64,000 bases of DNA, from NCBI GenBank assembly GCA_934661195.1, contig CAKUJD010000004.1, forward strand, positions 186,001-250,000, given 5' to 3'. Numbering within the stretch: position 1 is the first letter of the stretch; each line of letters opens with the position of its first letter. The position numbers and the translations under genes were made by a program. The notes under the pieces were generated by a model. That model had not been told where the DNA came from and searched no databases. It was given only the letters and a program-made list of their open reading frames with translations. Source of the DNA: an uncultured Muribaculaceae bacterium. Its GTDB lineage: Bacteria > Bacteroidota > Bacteroidia > Bacteroidales > Muribaculaceae. Below, one piece after another: positions 41,018 through 46,732 of the stretch.

Positions 41018-42403
41018 ATGAAAGATTTCAAATCGCTATATTTCGTGGGTGCCGGCGGCATAGGCATGGCCGCCCTTGAACGCTATTTCCTGGCCAAAGG
41101 CAAGCGCGTGGCCGGATACGACCGTACTGCCACCGATCTGACACGTGCCCTTGAAAAGGAGGGCGTGGCCATAAGCTACGATGAAGACCCGGCCCTGATT
41201 CCCGACTACTGCCGCGACAGCGCCACCACTCTGGTGGTCTACACCCCAGCCGTGCACGAGTCGCACAAGGGCCTGCAATACTTCCGCTCACACGGTTTCG
41301 AGGTGGTGAAGCGCGCCAAGCTGCTGGGTGTGGTCACCGAGCATTCCAAGGGCCTCTGCTTTGCGGGCACCCACGGCAAGACCACCACATCGAGCATGGC
41401 CGCCCACATACTGCAGACGGCCGGCATCGGCAGCAACGCCTTTCTTGGCGGTGTGCTGCGCAACTATGGCAGCAACTTCCTGCTGTCGGACTCCAGCCCT
41501 TATTCGGTGATTGAGGCCGACGAGTTCGACCGCTCGTTTCACCAGCTGAGCCCCTACATTGCTGTGGTCACCAGCACCGACCCCGACCATCTCGACATAT
41601 ATGGCAACTATGAGAACTATCTTGAGAGCTTTGCCCACTTCACCGAGCTCATCCGTCCCGACGGCGCGCTCATAGTGCACACCGGGCTCAAACTCAAGCC
41701 GCGCGTGCAGCCGGGCGTGCGCGTCTACACCTACTCACAGGCCGAGGGCGACTTCCATGCCGCCAATGTGCGTGTGGGTGGCGGCGAGATAGTGTTCGAC
41801 TTTGTGGCCCCTGACGGCACTGTGATTAAGGACATCAGTCTTGGCGTGCCCGTCGACATCAATGTGGAGAACGCCATTGCGGCAATGGCAGCATGCTGGC
41901 TCATACACGCCCCTGCCGAGGCCATGCGCAAGGCCATAGCCACTTTTAAGGGGGCCAAGCGTCGCTTTGAGTTCTGGCTTAAGGAGCCGGGCGACCACGG
42001 CAAGGTGGTGATCGACGACTATGCCCATCACCCCAACGAACTGAAGGCCAGCATCAGCTCGGTGCGCGACCTGTATCACGGCCGCAAACTCACGGTGATA
42101 TTCCAGCCTCACCTCTACACCCGCACACGCGATTTTGCCCCCGAGTTTGCCCGTGCCCTTTCGGCGGCCGATGAACTCTACCTGCTGCCCATCTACCCGG
42201 CGCGCGAAGAGCCCATTCCCGGTGTCACGAGCGACATAATACTGAAGGACGTCACCTGCCCAGTGAAGAAGATATTCACCAAGCAGCAGTTGCTTGAGGC
42301 CATTCCCGGCCTTGACTTCGACGTGCTGCTCACCGTGGGTGCCGGCGACATTGTGAACCTGTTGCCGCAGATTTGTGAAGAGGTAAAGAAGCAAAAACGT
42401 TGA
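41018..42403 (+). CDS. murC: UDP-N-acetylmuramate:L-alanine ligase
   Basis: MurC adds L-alanine to UDP-MurNAc, starting the stem peptide. The 461-residue protein has the UDP-binding GAGGIGMAAL (11-20), ATP loop GTHGKTTTSSM (117-127), EADEFDRSF and the DDYAHHPNE motif in the C-terminal domain. The final TGA overlaps the first base triplets of ftsQ (TTGA), so the two are probably translationally coupled. Confidence 0.96.
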   Translation: MKDFKSLYFVGAGGIGMAALERYFLAKGKRVAGYDRTATDLTRALEKEGVAISYDEDPALIPDYCRDSATTLVVYTPAVHESHKGLQYFRSHGFEVVKRAKLLGVVTEHSKGLCFAGTHGKTTTSSMAAHILQTAGIGSNAFLGGVLRNYGSNFLLSDSSPYSVIEADEFDRSFHQLSPYIAVVTSTDPDHLDIYGNYENYLESFAHFTELIRPDGALIVHTGLKLKPRVQPGVRVYTYSQAEGDFHAANVRVGGGEIVFDFVAPDGTVIKDISLGVPVDINVENAIAAMAACWLIHAPAEAMRKAIATFKGAKRRFEFWLKEPGDHGKVVIDDYAHHPNELKASISSVRDLYHGRKLTVIFQPHLYTRTRDFAPEFARALSAADELYLLPIYPAREEPIPGVTSDIILKDVTCPVKKIFTKQQLLEAIPGLDFDVLLTVGAGDIVNLLPQICEEVKKQKR

Positions 42404-43425
42404 AGATAGTCCGCTACATACTGCTGATGGTGCTCACTGCCCTGCTGGTGGCTGGCATGCTGTGGTCGCGCGGGGAGGCGCGCGACATGGCCTGCCGGCA
42501 GCTCGATGTGGAGGTGGTGAACGACGACAGCACCACATTCGTGTCGGTCGATGGGGTGACGCGCACCCTCGAGCAGAGCGGGTTGTCGCCTGTGGGCCGC
42601 CCCATGTGGCAAATTAACTGCGACGCCATGGAGCGCGTGCTCGGGCGGTCGGAGTATATCGAGAGTGTGCAGTGCTACAAGGACGAGGCCCTGGGTGTGG
42701 TGCACGTGCGCGTGCAGCAAATAGTGCCGGTGATGCGCGTGTTCGACGGCGATGTGTCGTATTACGTCAACCGCACAGGCAAGCGCATGACGGCCACCGA
42801 CGCCTTCCGCGCCGACGTGCCGGTGGTGGAGGGCCACTTTGGCGGCGGCTTCAGTCCCACGCGCCTGCTGCCCATGATTGAGTATGTGGAGTCCGACTCC
42901 ACGTTGCGCTCACTCGTCACCATGTATTGCGTGGCCGACAGCAACGACGTGTTCATTGTGCCCAGCATACGTGGCCATGTGGTGAACATGGGCTCGCCCG
43001 ACGGATTTAAGCAGAAGTTCAGCAAACTGCTGCTGTTCTACCGCAAGGTGATGCCCATCAAGGGCTGGAACACCTACGACACCATATCGGTGAAGTGGAG
43101 CCACCAGGTGGTGGCCACGCGCCGCTACAGCCAGCAGCGCACCGAGGATGCCTACGACCCCGACGACGATGAGCCGGCACCCGACATGGAGATGATGACC
43201 GACGCCGCCACGCCTGCACCCAAGGCCGACGCTCAAGAGGGCGAAAAGGCCGAGCCCAAGAAAAAAGAGCCTAAAAAGCCCGAGGCCAAGCCTGCCGCCG
43301 ACAAGAAGCCAAAGCCCGAGGCCAAAAGCAACGACAAGGCAAAGTCCAAGTCGGCCGACAAGGCAAAAAAAACCGCAAAGTCCGACAAGGCCAAGAAGGA
43401 CCCGGACAAAAAGAAATCAAAATGA
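42400..43425 (+). CDS. ftsQ: FtsQ-like cell-division protein with long Lys-rich tail
   Basis: A bitopic septal protein expected to recruit FtsL-type partners. The start is a TTG overlapping the murC stop; the first downstream ATG (42427) would remove part of the membrane anchor, so TTG is preferred. In 341 residues: transmembrane helix about 4-21, POTRA-like and beta domains (about 35-240), then about 95 residues (248-341) that are nearly all Pro, Ala, Lys, Glu and Asp and must be disordered. The E. coli protein is 276 residues and lacks such a tail. Identification rests on topology and on position between murC and ftsA. Confidence 0.85.
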   Translation: MKIVRYILLMVLTALLVAGMLWSRGEARDMACRQLDVEVVNDDSTTFVSVDGVTRTLEQSGLSPVGRPMWQINCDAMERVLGRSEYIESVQCYKDEALGVVHVRVQQIVPVMRVFDGDVSYYVNRTGKRMTATDAFRADVPVVEGHFGGGFSPTRLLPMIEYVESDSTLRSLVTMYCVADSNDVFIVPSIRGHVVNMGSPDGFKQKFSKLLLFYRKVMPIKGWNTYDTISVKWSHQVVATRRYSQQRTEDAYDPDDDEPAPDMEMMTDAATPAPKADAQEGEKAEPKKKEPKKPEAKPAADKKPKPEAKSNDKAKSKSADKAKKTAKSDKAKKDPDKKKSK

Positions 43426-43470: not shown

Positions 43471-44787
43471 ATGGCAAATACCCAATATATAGTGGCCATT
43501 GAGGTTGGCAGCTCCAAAATTGTGGGGGCTGTGGCCGAGAAATACAGCTCGGGCAACATTCAGGTCAACAGCCTGGCCGAGGAGCGCATGCAAAACAGCG
43601 TGCGCTATGGCTGCGTGCAAAATGTGGAAAGTGTGAAAAATGCCGTGAGCAAAATCCTCTCGCGTCTCACCCCAAGTCTTGACTGCACCATCAACGACGT
43701 GTTTGTGGGCATCAGCGGCCGCTCGCTGCATTCTGTGCCGGCCGAGCTCGTGCGCCAGCTAAACCCGTCGGACGTGATAACCAAAGAGGCTCTCGTGGCC
43801 ATTGAAAACGCTGCGGGCAAGACCCCAGTTGACGGCTACGACCTTCTCGCCACCGTGCCGCGTGCCTACTATGTGGACGGCATCGAGACCAAGACTCCGT
43901 GCGGCCAGTTTGGCTCGCAAATCAAGGTGAACGTGAACCGCATAGTGGCAAAGCCCATATTAAAGAAAAACCTGAGCTATGTGATGGACAACTGCACCCA
44001 CGTGCGCCGCTACTTCGTGACCCCGCTGTGCGTTGGCTCGCAGGTGCTCACCGACACCGAGCGGTCGCTGGGATGCATGCTTGTGGACTTCGGAGCCGAG
44101 ACCACCACTGTGTCGATCTACAAAAACGACTATCTGGTGTATCTGGCCACGCTGCCTCTGGGCTCGCGCAACCTGACGCGCGACATAGCCAACGGCCTTG
44201 GCACCGTGCTTGAGGACACTGCCGAACAGGTGAAACTCAACCTTGCCCATCCGCTCGACCCTTCGTCGGAGCCAATTGTGATAAAGTCGGTGAACTCAAC
44301 CGACGCCATCAACTTCATTGTGGCACGCACGGGCGAGATTGTGGCCAACATCAACCAGCAAATTGAGTATGCCGGCCTTGAGGCTGGCGACATCAACAAC
44401 ATAGTGCTCGTGGGCGGCGGCTCGCAGCTCAACGGCCTGGCGCAGGAACTCACAAAGGCCACCAAGCTTAATGTGCGCATGGGGTCAATTCCCGCCTCGC
44501 TCAGCATCACCGACCAGCGCCTCAACCGCATTGAGTACATCGAACTCTATTCGCTGCTGTCACGCGCCGCCGGGGTTATGAAGCCCGGTGACACCTGCAT
44601 CACCATCAATGAGTATGATGAAGGCGACATTGAAGTGAATAGGCCAGAGCAACCGACTGTAAGAGAACCTGAACCTGAGCCTGCCCCCGCTCCAGACTCC
44701 AAAAAGTCGGGAAAGAAAAAAAGAGGCTTTTTCGAAAAATTCCAGCGCGCTCTTGGCCAGATAATGAGTGAACCGCCCGAAGAATAG
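43471..44787 (+). CDS. ftsA: Cell-division actin homologue FtsA
   Basis: FtsA tethers FtsZ filaments to the inner membrane. The 438-residue protein has the actin-type phosphate loops (VAIEVGSSKIVGAV at 7-20, MLVDFGAETTTVS near 205-217), the inserted 1C domain and VLVGGGSQLNGL for adenosine binding. After a Pro/Glu-rich linker (about 395-415) the protein ends in an amphipathic helix, GFFEKFQRALGQIM, which is the membrane-targeting sequence. The 3' end of this gene is duplicated further downstream, beyond a broken ftsZ head. Confidence 0.96.
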   Translation: MANTQYIVAIEVGSSKIVGAVAEKYSSGNIQVNSLAEERMQNSVRYGCVQNVESVKNAVSKILSRLTPSLDCTINDVFVGISGRSLHSVPAELVRQLNPSDVITKEALVAIENAAGKTPVDGYDLLATVPRAYYVDGIETKTPCGQFGSQIKVNVNRIVAKPILKKNLSYVMDNCTHVRRYFVTPLCVGSQVLTDTERSLGCMLVDFGAETTTVSIYKNDYLVYLATLPLGSRNLTRDIANGLGTVLEDTAEQVKLNLAHPLDPSSEPIVIKSVNSTDAINFIVARTGEIVANINQQIEYAGLEAGDINNIVLVGGGSQLNGLAQELTKATKLNVRMGSIPASLSITDQRLNRIEYIELYSLLSRAAGVMKPGDTCITINEYDEGDIEVNRPEQPTVREPEPEPAPAPDSKKSGKKKRGFFEKFQRALGQIMSEPPEE

Positions 44788-45566
44788 TGGAGAATAACAA
44801 TATCGGATAACAACAATAAAACAGATATAATCATGTCCGATGAGAATAAAAAACAAGGGCAGCCAACCAGTAAGCAGATAGACGACACGATTGATGAGGT
44901 GACGGCAAACCATGGCTTTGAAGCAGAGAAAAAAGCCCCGGTTGTCATTAAGGTGATAGGTGTGGGCGGTGGTGCCATCAATGCCGCAACCACATGTATT
45001 CGCAGCACATAAAGGGCGTATCGTTTGCGGTGATCGACTCAGACTGCTATGGTCTCTATAACTCACCCGTGCCCAACCGCCTGCTCATAGGCGCCAATAT
45101 GATGGACGACATTGTCCCCATTAATGTCAGTAAACCTGTGGAGGCTCCTGTGAGCAAAAAAAACGTCAAAAAGCCAAAGTCAGGCTGGTTCAGCAAATTT
45201 CAGCGCATCCTTAGCCGCATAATAAATGGAGGCGACTATGAGTAGCGCGCCAGCATAACTAAATTATAAGAACAACAGAAAAAACAGATGTAATCATGTC
45301 CGATGAGAATAAAAAACAAGGACAGCCAACTGCATCACCCGACGGAATGCAGATTGACGCCATGATAGATGAAGCTACGGCTAACCCCGGCTTCCAAGTA
45401 GAGAAAAAAGCCCCGGTCATCATAAAGGTGGTGGGTGTGGGCGGCGGTGGCAACAATGCCATCAACCACATGTATGCCCAGCACATCGAGGGGGTGTCGT
45501 TTGAGGTGATCAACACCGACCGCCAGGCTCTCGACAATTCACCCGTGCCCAACCGCCTGCTCATAG
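44626..45566 (+). repeat. Degenerate tandem duplication of the ftsA-ftsZ junction
   Basis: Two consecutive units each run from the ftsA 3' end through the spacer into the ftsZ 5' end. Unit 1 is 44626 to about 45092 and unit 2 is 45108 to about 45566. The ATGs of the two ftsZ heads are 463 bases apart. The bases around them are almost identical (about 25 bases of leader plus the first nine codons differ at only two or three positions), whereas other parts have diverged at many codons. In unit 1 the ftsZ head is truncated and frameshifted; in unit 2 only the last part of ftsA is left. Confidence 0.85.
44833..45245 (+). pseudogene. Broken ftsZ head fused to a second ftsA tail
   Basis: From ATG 44833 the frame reads MSDENKKQGQPT... 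and follows FtsZ through IKVIGVGGG, then one base is missing near 44986 relative to intact ftsZ and the frame ends at 45009. In the next frame FtsZ similarity resumes (MYSQHIKGVSF ... NSPVPNRLLIG, 44994-45092) and stops where the tubulin core would continue. From 45108 to 45245 the protein instead matches the end of FtsA, including the amphipathic helix (SGWFSKFQRILSRI against RGFFEKFQRALGQI). No GTP-binding GGGTGTG motif is present, so it cannot act as FtsZ. It looks like a decaying duplication product; whether the second frame (83 codons) is translated is open. Confidence 0.85.
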
Positions 45567-46732
45567 GCCCCGAAACCACAGGCGGCCTTGGCGCTGGCAA
45601 CGACCCCGAGCGTGCGCGTATGGCTGCCGAGGAAAGTGCAGAAGACATAGGCAACCTGTTTGAGGACGACACCAAGATGGCGTTTATCACAGCTGGCATG
45701 GGCGGCGGCACCGGCACCGGAGCTGCGCCTGTGGTGGCCCGCATCGCACGCGAGCACGGCGTGCTCACCATCGGCATCGTCACCATTCCATTCCTGTTTG
45801 AGGGCAAGAAGAAAATTCTCAAGGCCCTTGCCGGAGCCGACGAGATGCAGAAATACGTCGACGCCCTGCTGATAATCAACAACGAGCGCCTCACTGAAAT
45901 ATATCCCGACCTTGACTTCGACAATGCATTCGGCAAGGCCGACGACACGTTGTCGGTGGCCGCACAAAGCATTTCCGACCTCATAACCGTGCCGGGTATC
46001 ATCAACCTCGACTTCAACGATGTCAACACCACCTTGCGCGATGGCGGTGTGGCAATAATCAGTTCGGGTTGCGGCGAGGGTGAGCACCGCATCACCAAGG
46101 CAGTTGAGAATGCGCTTGAGTCGCCGCTGCTCAAAAACCGCGATGTGTACACGTCGAAGAAGGTGCTTGTTAACATCTACTACTCGCCCAAGAGCAAGAA
46201 TCCGTTTAAAATGGAGGAGGTGAATGAAATGACTAATTTCATGAACAATTTCATTCCCGATGTGGATGTTATATGGGGCACTGCCCACGACGAGTCGCTT
46301 GAAGACAGCATAAAGGTCACCATCCTGGCTTCGGGATTCGATGCCAACTCCAGTTTGTCGCCCGAGAAGGAGGCTGGAGTGAAGGCCCCTTCTGTTGAGC
46401 CGGAACGCGCTCACCACAGCAATCGTAAGCCCATTGCAGTCCAGCCCGACCCTGAGGACGACCGGAAACGGCTTGAAGACATCTATGGCGATAAGTTCAA
46501 AACGCAGGACATGGAAAAAGCCAAGCAGAAGTTTGTGGTGCTTAAGCCCAACGAGATGGACAACGATGAAATCATCGACCGGCTTGAGCGCACTCCTGCA
46601 TACAACCGCCCGGCAAAATTCAAGACCGAAATCCGCGAGTTGCAACAGCAGCAGGCTCAGCCGCAGCCTGCATCCGTCCCGGCACCGGGCGCACTGGCCC
46701 AAAGCGGAACCATAACCTTTGGCGCTTCTTGA
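45296..46732 (+). CDS. ftsZ: Cell-division tubulin homologue FtsZ
   Basis: FtsZ polymerises with GTP into the ring that organises division. In 478 residues: an acidic N-terminal extension (1-38), the GTPase domain with GGGTGTG at 136-142 and the T7 loop NLDFNDVNT, and a C-terminal domain to about 345. The variable tail contains a conserved-looking block (DNDEIIDRLERTPAYNRP, about 422-439) and then a Gln/Pro/Ala-rich end finishing TITFGAS. The usual C-terminal peptide (IPxFLRxxxD type) is not at the terminus. The gene is preceded by a partial, broken copy of its own start. Confidence 0.97.
   Translation: MSDENKKQGQPTASPDGMQIDAMIDEATANPGFQVEKKAPVIIKVVGVGGGGNNAINHMYAQHIEGVSFEVINTDRQALDNSPVPNRLLIGPETTGGLGAGNDPERARMAAEESAEDIGNLFEDDTKMAFITAGMGGGTGTGAAPVVARIAREHGVLTIGIVTIPFLFEGKKKILKALAGADEMQKYVDALLIINNERLTEIYPDLDFDNAFGKADDTLSVAAQSISDLITVPGIINLDFNDVNTTLRDGGVAIISSGCGEGEHRITKAVENALESPLLKNRDVYTSKKVLVNIYYSPKSKNPFKMEEVNEMTNFMNNFIPDVDVIWGTAHDESLEDSIKVTILASGFDANSSLSPEKEAGVKAPSVEPERAHHSNRKPIAVQPDPEDDRKRLEDIYGDKFKTQDMEKAKQKFVVLKPNEMDNDEIIDRLERTPAYNRPAKFKTEIRELQQQQAQPQPASVPAPGALAQSGTITFGAS

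Follow-up and report, generated by a model that had tools for sequence, protein, structure and literature searches.

Chimeric genes formed by tandem duplication of adjacent genes, in which the 5' part of the downstream gene is joined to the 3' part of the upstream gene and both parents stay intact, have been described mainly in eukaryotes. In bacteria, strong constraint acts on the division genes ftsA and ftsZ. The small proteins SulA and MciZ bind the C-terminal domain of FtsZ. Complexes of MciZ and SulA are mentioned in PMC11938149, and phage proteins targeting FtsZ in PMC13423816. According to PMC5979038, the engineered protein FtsZ-YFP-mts needs no FtsA to reach membranes, its added amphipathic helix being sufficient.

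The locus described here resides in a 64,000-nucleotide stretch of DNA from an uncultured Muribaculaceae bacterium (the window; contig CAKUJD010000004.1), and carries between ftsA and ftsZ a chimeric gene made up of an FtsZ head and an FtsA tail. It shares its architecture with the tandem-duplication chimeras known from other organisms, but is found in a bacterial division cluster, across the ftsA-ftsZ junction. As in FtsZ-YFP-mts, FtsZ material is combined with an amphipathic helix, a putative membrane seat independent of FtsA; the latter is however engineered and retains a polymerising GTPase core, whereas the chimera is natural, retains of the N-terminal domain only its first third, has a changed G1 loop and uses the helix of FtsA itself. 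Like MciZ and SulA it is a small protein proposed to act on FtsZ, yet no sequence relation to either was found, and the chimera is itself built of FtsZ and FtsA parts. FtsZ paralogues, whether truncated or additional, are similarly FtsZ copies with missing motifs, but keep most of their length, and no FtsA tail is present in the sequences read. No FtsZ-head/FtsA-tail fusion of this kind was found described in the open-licence literature searched. The gene probably encodes a membrane-tethered FtsZ-fragment accessory that would tune the Z ring, functional in relatives and broken in the window.

The order ftsA, ftsZ head, ftsA-like tail, intact ftsZ, claimed in the initial annotation, was found again upon re-reading coordinates and open reading frames (Table 1), and the claimed period of 463 bases between the two ATGs was reproduced. 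What that annotation overlooked is that the ftsZ head of copy 1 continues into the ftsA tail of copy 2, forming the chimeric frame. The ftsA product exceeds the Pfam FtsA cut-off (68.3 vs. 31.8 bits), and is slightly below that of SHS2_FTSA (24.2 vs. 25.4 bits). The gene preceding ftsA (42400-43425, ftsQ-like by position) features a long Lys/Pro/Ala-rich C-terminal tail, encoded at 43230-43425.

Table 1. Features of the ftsA-ftsZ junction (window positions).
Feature	Positions	Strand	Evidence and remarks
ftsA, intact	43471..44787	+	ORF of 438 aa; C-terminal amphipathic tail RGFFEKFQRALGQI
Duplication unit, copy 1 (ftsA end, leader, ftsZ head), approximate boundaries	44626..45095	+	repeats, identity profile, blastn
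Leader ahead of the chimera start	44818..44832	+	1 of 15 bases different from its twin at 45281-45295
Chimeric gene, FtsZ head and FtsA tail	44833..45245	+	one-base frame slip at about 44983-44993; intact relatives P0121, P0122, P0123 (137-142 aa)
FtsZ-head open frame up to slip and stop	44833..45012	+	ORF of 59 aa; identical protein P0124, 19 contigs
Second open frame, remaining FtsZ head and FtsA-like tail	44994..45245	+	83 aa; 94, 77 and 61% identity to P0121, P0122 and P0123
Fusion point, FtsZ (...NRLLIG) / FtsA-like tail	45093..45110	+	identity to ftsZ head drops past ~45092; alignment to P0004 FtsA tail starts at INVSKPVEAPVS
Duplication unit, copy 2 (ftsA-like tail, leader, head of intact ftsZ), approximate boundaries	45100..45590	+	repeats, blastn, tail shuffles
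FtsA-like tail, linker and amphipathic helix WFSKFQRILSRIIN	~45108..45245	+	0/1000 shuffles; moment 0.82, 4/1000 shuffles as high
ftsZ, intact	45296..46732	+	478 aa; TIGR00065 346 bits, cut-off 295.2; Pfam Tubulin and FtsZ_C

The duplication is real. Three pairs of direct repeats (44818-44867/45281-45330, 44874-44985/45349-45460 and 44987-45114/45463-45590, 96, 81 and 79% identical, respectively) are spaced 463 to 476 bases apart, and base-level alignment of 44626-45100 with 45101-45600 by blastn gave a single match, 44809-45095 against 45271-45571, with 80% identity over 301 columns (E 3e-77). The match spans the leader and the ftsZ head, not the ftsA-tail part (44626-44775), for which blastn returned no match, identity ranging from 29 to 68% per 30-column block. 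At the protein level, the ftsA-like tail was compared to five FtsA tails, and in each of 20 comparisons 0/1000 shuffles reached the score. The two-unit alignment, the repeat spacing and the FtsA homology of the tail bear out the tandem duplication of the junction proposed initially, and a single duplication in tandem across ftsA-ftsZ, about 475 bases long, explains the gene order. Both parents are intact, the hybrid lies between them, and the spacing is constant over the unit, as in genes known to have arisen in this way.

Upon searching with the 83-residue piece encoded by the second open frame, which yielded four candidates at E values up to 1, exactly three proteins were found, P0121 (137 aa), P0122 (141 aa) and P0123 (142 aa, 61% identity over 88%). 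Compared as proteins, each carries the complete fusion in a single open frame. The fusion is absent from the other proteins among the top 120 matches listed, as judged from domain annotation and lengths, 13 sequences having been inspected. In a tree of 70 heads, all four chimeras group together in a clade of their own (support 0.979). The clade uniting them with the window FtsZ has 20 members, includes fast-evolving paralogues and has a support of 0.591, the chimeras not being adjacent to the window FtsZ; the common leader and N-terminus are a stronger sign of a local origin than the tree. The ASP-stretch is missing in three of the four chimeras, but present in P0123 and the window ftsZ, a distribution consistent with vertical inheritance in which P0123 holds the outermost position.

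The closest FtsA proteins fall in five clusters at 85-97% identity to that of the window, the next one being at 55%. The longest contig is 29,590 for both P0123 and the FtsA P0004, and this equality, the sole hint on gene order in the relatives, suggests that the two are neighbours. A single-sequence FtsA query matched 27 stretches of the genome contigs, 0 of which were confirmed; a scan with FtsA alignment A1, in which 306 loci were confirmed, supplied 80 related loci, none belonging to the clade of the window (best identity 55%). An ftsZ match is found in 78 of the 80 (L052 and L078 have none), and L054 ends right after the head, which leaves 77 informative loci. The junction is plain in these 77, 0 of which have a copied head in the ftsA-ftsZ interval, and the copy in the window is unusual, as had been remarked. 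In one locus (L045, 6303-6630) ftsA and ftsZ are 314 bases apart against the usual tens; this gap was checked, and holds no head or tail copy. In the nearest genus, ftsA DNA matched at E 1e-60 in 4 of 101 genomes (best 69%). At E 1e-80, 396 genomes of the family gave 0 matches, a figure which by itself proves nothing. The best match of the chimera query in 397 family genomes (E 2.7e-26, 53%) was an ordinary FtsZ, and the exact leader-and-start pattern had 0 matches in viral contigs. Since the 77 loci lack the head copy, the best hit in 397 genomes is at 53%, and no genome searched belongs to the clade, the range of the gene, in what was examined, is limited to a small clade close to a Muribaculaceae genus including Candidatus Sodaliphilus.

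The chimeric products score 45.8, 48.1 and 43.4 bits (P0121, P0122 and P0123, respectively) against TIGR00065, below the cut-off of 295.2, and 16.3-18.6 against Pfam Tubulin, below 33. In the G1 loop GGGG is replaced by GGGA, all four chimeras featuring GGGAIN against GVGGGG in 62/62 FtsZ heads; the fragment stops before T4 (GGGTGTG), and T7 and the C-terminal domain are also missing. Given the role of these elements in FtsZ, GTP hydrolysis is excluded. For P0122, AlphaFold predicts beta strands at residues 39-44, 63-69 and 82-85, and helices at 46-57 and 72-77, with pLDDT block means of 87-92 over residues 41-80, an unstructured linker (pLDDT below 50) and a further helix at 123-135; the overall confidence is modest (mean pLDDT 63, pTM 0.49), and FtsZ fragments make up 30 of 33 rows in the alignment used. 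The 50 PDB fold matches listed for this model are all FtsZ entries, and all 45 PDB sequences matched are named FtsZ. The beta-alpha-beta core of the FtsZ N-terminal domain is thus recognized as a prediction, from an alignment dominated by FtsZ rows.

No FtsA domain, either actin-like or SHS2, was found in P0121-P0123 or the two window pieces, and the FtsA contribution is the C-terminal amphipathic helix, recognized by similarity (0/1000 shuffles) and by a moment which is significant in the window, P0121 and P0122 tails (matched by 4, 4 and 0 of 1000 shuffles), and not in P0123, which lacks the final residues (157/1000 shuffles). The tail of the window ftsA has a moment of 0.68 (12/1000 shuffles as high). 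FtsA P0004 is the best match for all four chimera tails, and this suggests that the copied tail represents an older form of the FtsA tail than that of the present-day window ftsA. The chimera tail would bind membranes.

The loss of one base in the first ftsZ head, reported initially, holds true, the register being lost around 44983-44993 and a stop codon following at 45010-45012. A profile search recovered a single protein cluster identical to the 59-residue broken head in every residue and recorded on 19 contigs, the longest of 583,135 bases, although contigs may not be independent samples; since an identical broken head recurs on all of them, the slip is unlikely to be the error of one assembly. 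Near the slip (44940-45060) no base occurs four or more times in a row, and the two observations largely dispel the suspicion of an assembly artefact. Programmed frameshifting was considered and set aside, as neither a slippery heptamer of the kinds scanned nor such a run is found in that interval. Translation might restart at the internal ATG at 44994, after the stop of the head frame. The window lineage has probably lost the gene as a full-length product, and because the copy is broken on 19 contigs the chimera is dispensable there. The gene is disabled in this genome as a pseudogene is, and not throughout the lineage, three relatives being open. The label of fossil initially given to the locus suits the broken window copy, and does not suit the three relatives, which carry the fusion in one open frame and show a pattern of change pointing to selection on the fusion protein.

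It may be argued that the locus is plain duplication debris, never functional, decaying, and still open by chance in the three relatives sampled. The broken window copy fits this view, as does the GC content at third codon positions, lower in the chimera head (0.52) than in the matching part of ftsZ (0.66). A neutral simulation allowing substitutions only left the frame without a stop codon in 666 of 1000 runs at 94% identity, in 329 at 81% and in 142 at 66%; stop-free runs being so frequent, an open frame alone is weak evidence. The tail features no purifying pattern with respect to ftsA (pS 0.33, pN 0.33 over 20 codons), and neither the stop-free frame alone nor the tail substitutions prove selection. 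What makes debris unlikely is the pattern of conservation. P0122 and P0123 are identical at 87 of 136 aligned residues (64%), but share a run of 30 identical residues that 0/20,000 shuffles reproduced, and this run holds GGGAIN, IKGVSF and SFAVI, states which none of the 62 distinct FtsZ heads collected at 107 related loci contains. The 62 heads were taken from frames of at least 300 residues with GTGTG and GVGGG, and damaged paralogues (reading GGGGINAVNHMY) were thus left out. As its states are absent from these heads, copying from ftsZ does not explain the run, unless the FtsZs of the clade itself differ. Moreover, GWFSK is conserved in the tails of all four chimeras, and the dN/dS ratio, calculated on the duplicated parts as the initial annotation had proposed, is 0.31 between the window copy and the window ftsZ head (dS 0.50; bootstrap 0.15-0.61), a value which includes the constraint on ftsZ itself, a neutral chimera beside a constrained ftsZ being expected at about 0.5, within the interval. 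Four ftsZ codons lacking a partner, the codons around the slip and the first 12 codons were left out of the stated value. Selection on the protein in the relatives is likely from these comparisons, though not proven.

Alternatively, the repeat could be a cis-acting element, the copied leader and the short upstream frame being kept to tune ftsZ translation or message stability, with the protein secondary. The leader and first codons are the best conserved DNA (96%, rising to 97% in the block 44831-44860); conservation is not perfect, contrary to what had been claimed, since the 50-nt block containing the leader has 2 differences. The gap before ftsZ (50 nt) resembles the ordinary ftsA-ftsZ gap of relatives. 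In addition, KQGQPT is found near the start in both window copies (44833-44868, 45296-45331), KQEQPA in the chimeras of the three relatives, which fits, and suggests without proving, copying by gene conversion between the two starts. Yet the protein part most conserved among relatives is the core, far from the leader, synonymous change in the first 12 codons is not clearly low (2/6.3 vs. 18/49.2 sites), and neither a Bacteroidetes-type promoter motif in 44301-45400 nor any Rfam match in the window was found, so that this explanation appears improbable. Even less credit is given to a decoy, a tethered FtsZ head soaking up FtsZ-directed proteins such as division inhibitors made by phages. FtsZ-targeting phage proteins are known (PMC13423816), and the nearest genus repeatedly carries additional FtsZ genes whose T4 loop is damaged (8 loci in 7 of 101 genomes, three of the eight loci having been read), both being context only, and against the idea the fragment is devoid of the C-terminal domain. 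That the second junction does not exist, and was created by the assembly, is hardly credible, as the two copies differ by about 20%, the fusion is carried by three other proteins and the broken head by the contigs mentioned above, which may not be independent.

The chimeric gene, which in the reading we favour encodes an FtsZ accessory, originated in a single event in the common ancestor of the window lineage and the P0121, P0122 and P0123 lineages, when about 475 bases were duplicated in tandem, from a point in the 3' part of ftsA to a point about 90 codons into ftsZ. The event left ftsA and ftsZ whole, and created between them a third gene, in which FtsZ residues 1 to about 90 are followed by the linker and the amphipathic helix that end FtsA; the leader ahead of it and the ftsA stop behind it are copies. 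The one-base slip was acquired by the window lineage. The small product would consist of an FtsZ core of the form beta-alpha-beta-alpha-beta, lacking most of the GTPase site and any C-terminal domain, followed by a flexible linker and a membrane-binding helix. Most likely it would act as an FtsZ accessory partner at the membrane, tuning Z-ring assembly by binding either FtsZ itself or a partner that binds FtsZ. More tentatively, the young gene may supply a natural membrane-tethered, GTPase-less FtsZ head, brought to the division site by the FtsA helix, which would pair with FtsZ filaments and set ring assembly or turnover. The locus looks like a lineage-specific young gene rather than a mere fossil.

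If true, this would be the first natural counterpart of the laboratory FtsZ-mts fusions, obtained by one mutational step within the division gene cluster. The birth of a hybrid gene in one step, open and unevenly conserved in several relatives, would provide a datable origin of a new gene in bacteria, and the window lineage, in which the gene is broken, a natural loss for comparison. The obvious functional question is whether a tethered non-hydrolysing piece of FtsZ is a help or a restraint for the Z ring.

Additional FtsZ genes were observed in related genomes. A second ftsZ-like gene lies directly 3' of ftsZ in 6 of the 78 related loci with an ftsZ match (L048, L068, L070, L073, L075 and L076), encoding 388-418 aa in five loci, and being cut or broken in L075. 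Others, residing outside the division cluster, make up the eight distal damaged copies counted by matches in the nearest genus. The three of these that were read (L125:2017-2757, L126 and L127, in genomes G191, G361 and G311, respectively) feature GGETGTD instead of GGGTGTG, and their G1 region reads GGGGIN. These distal copies and the chimera have INAVNHMYSQ-like letters in common.
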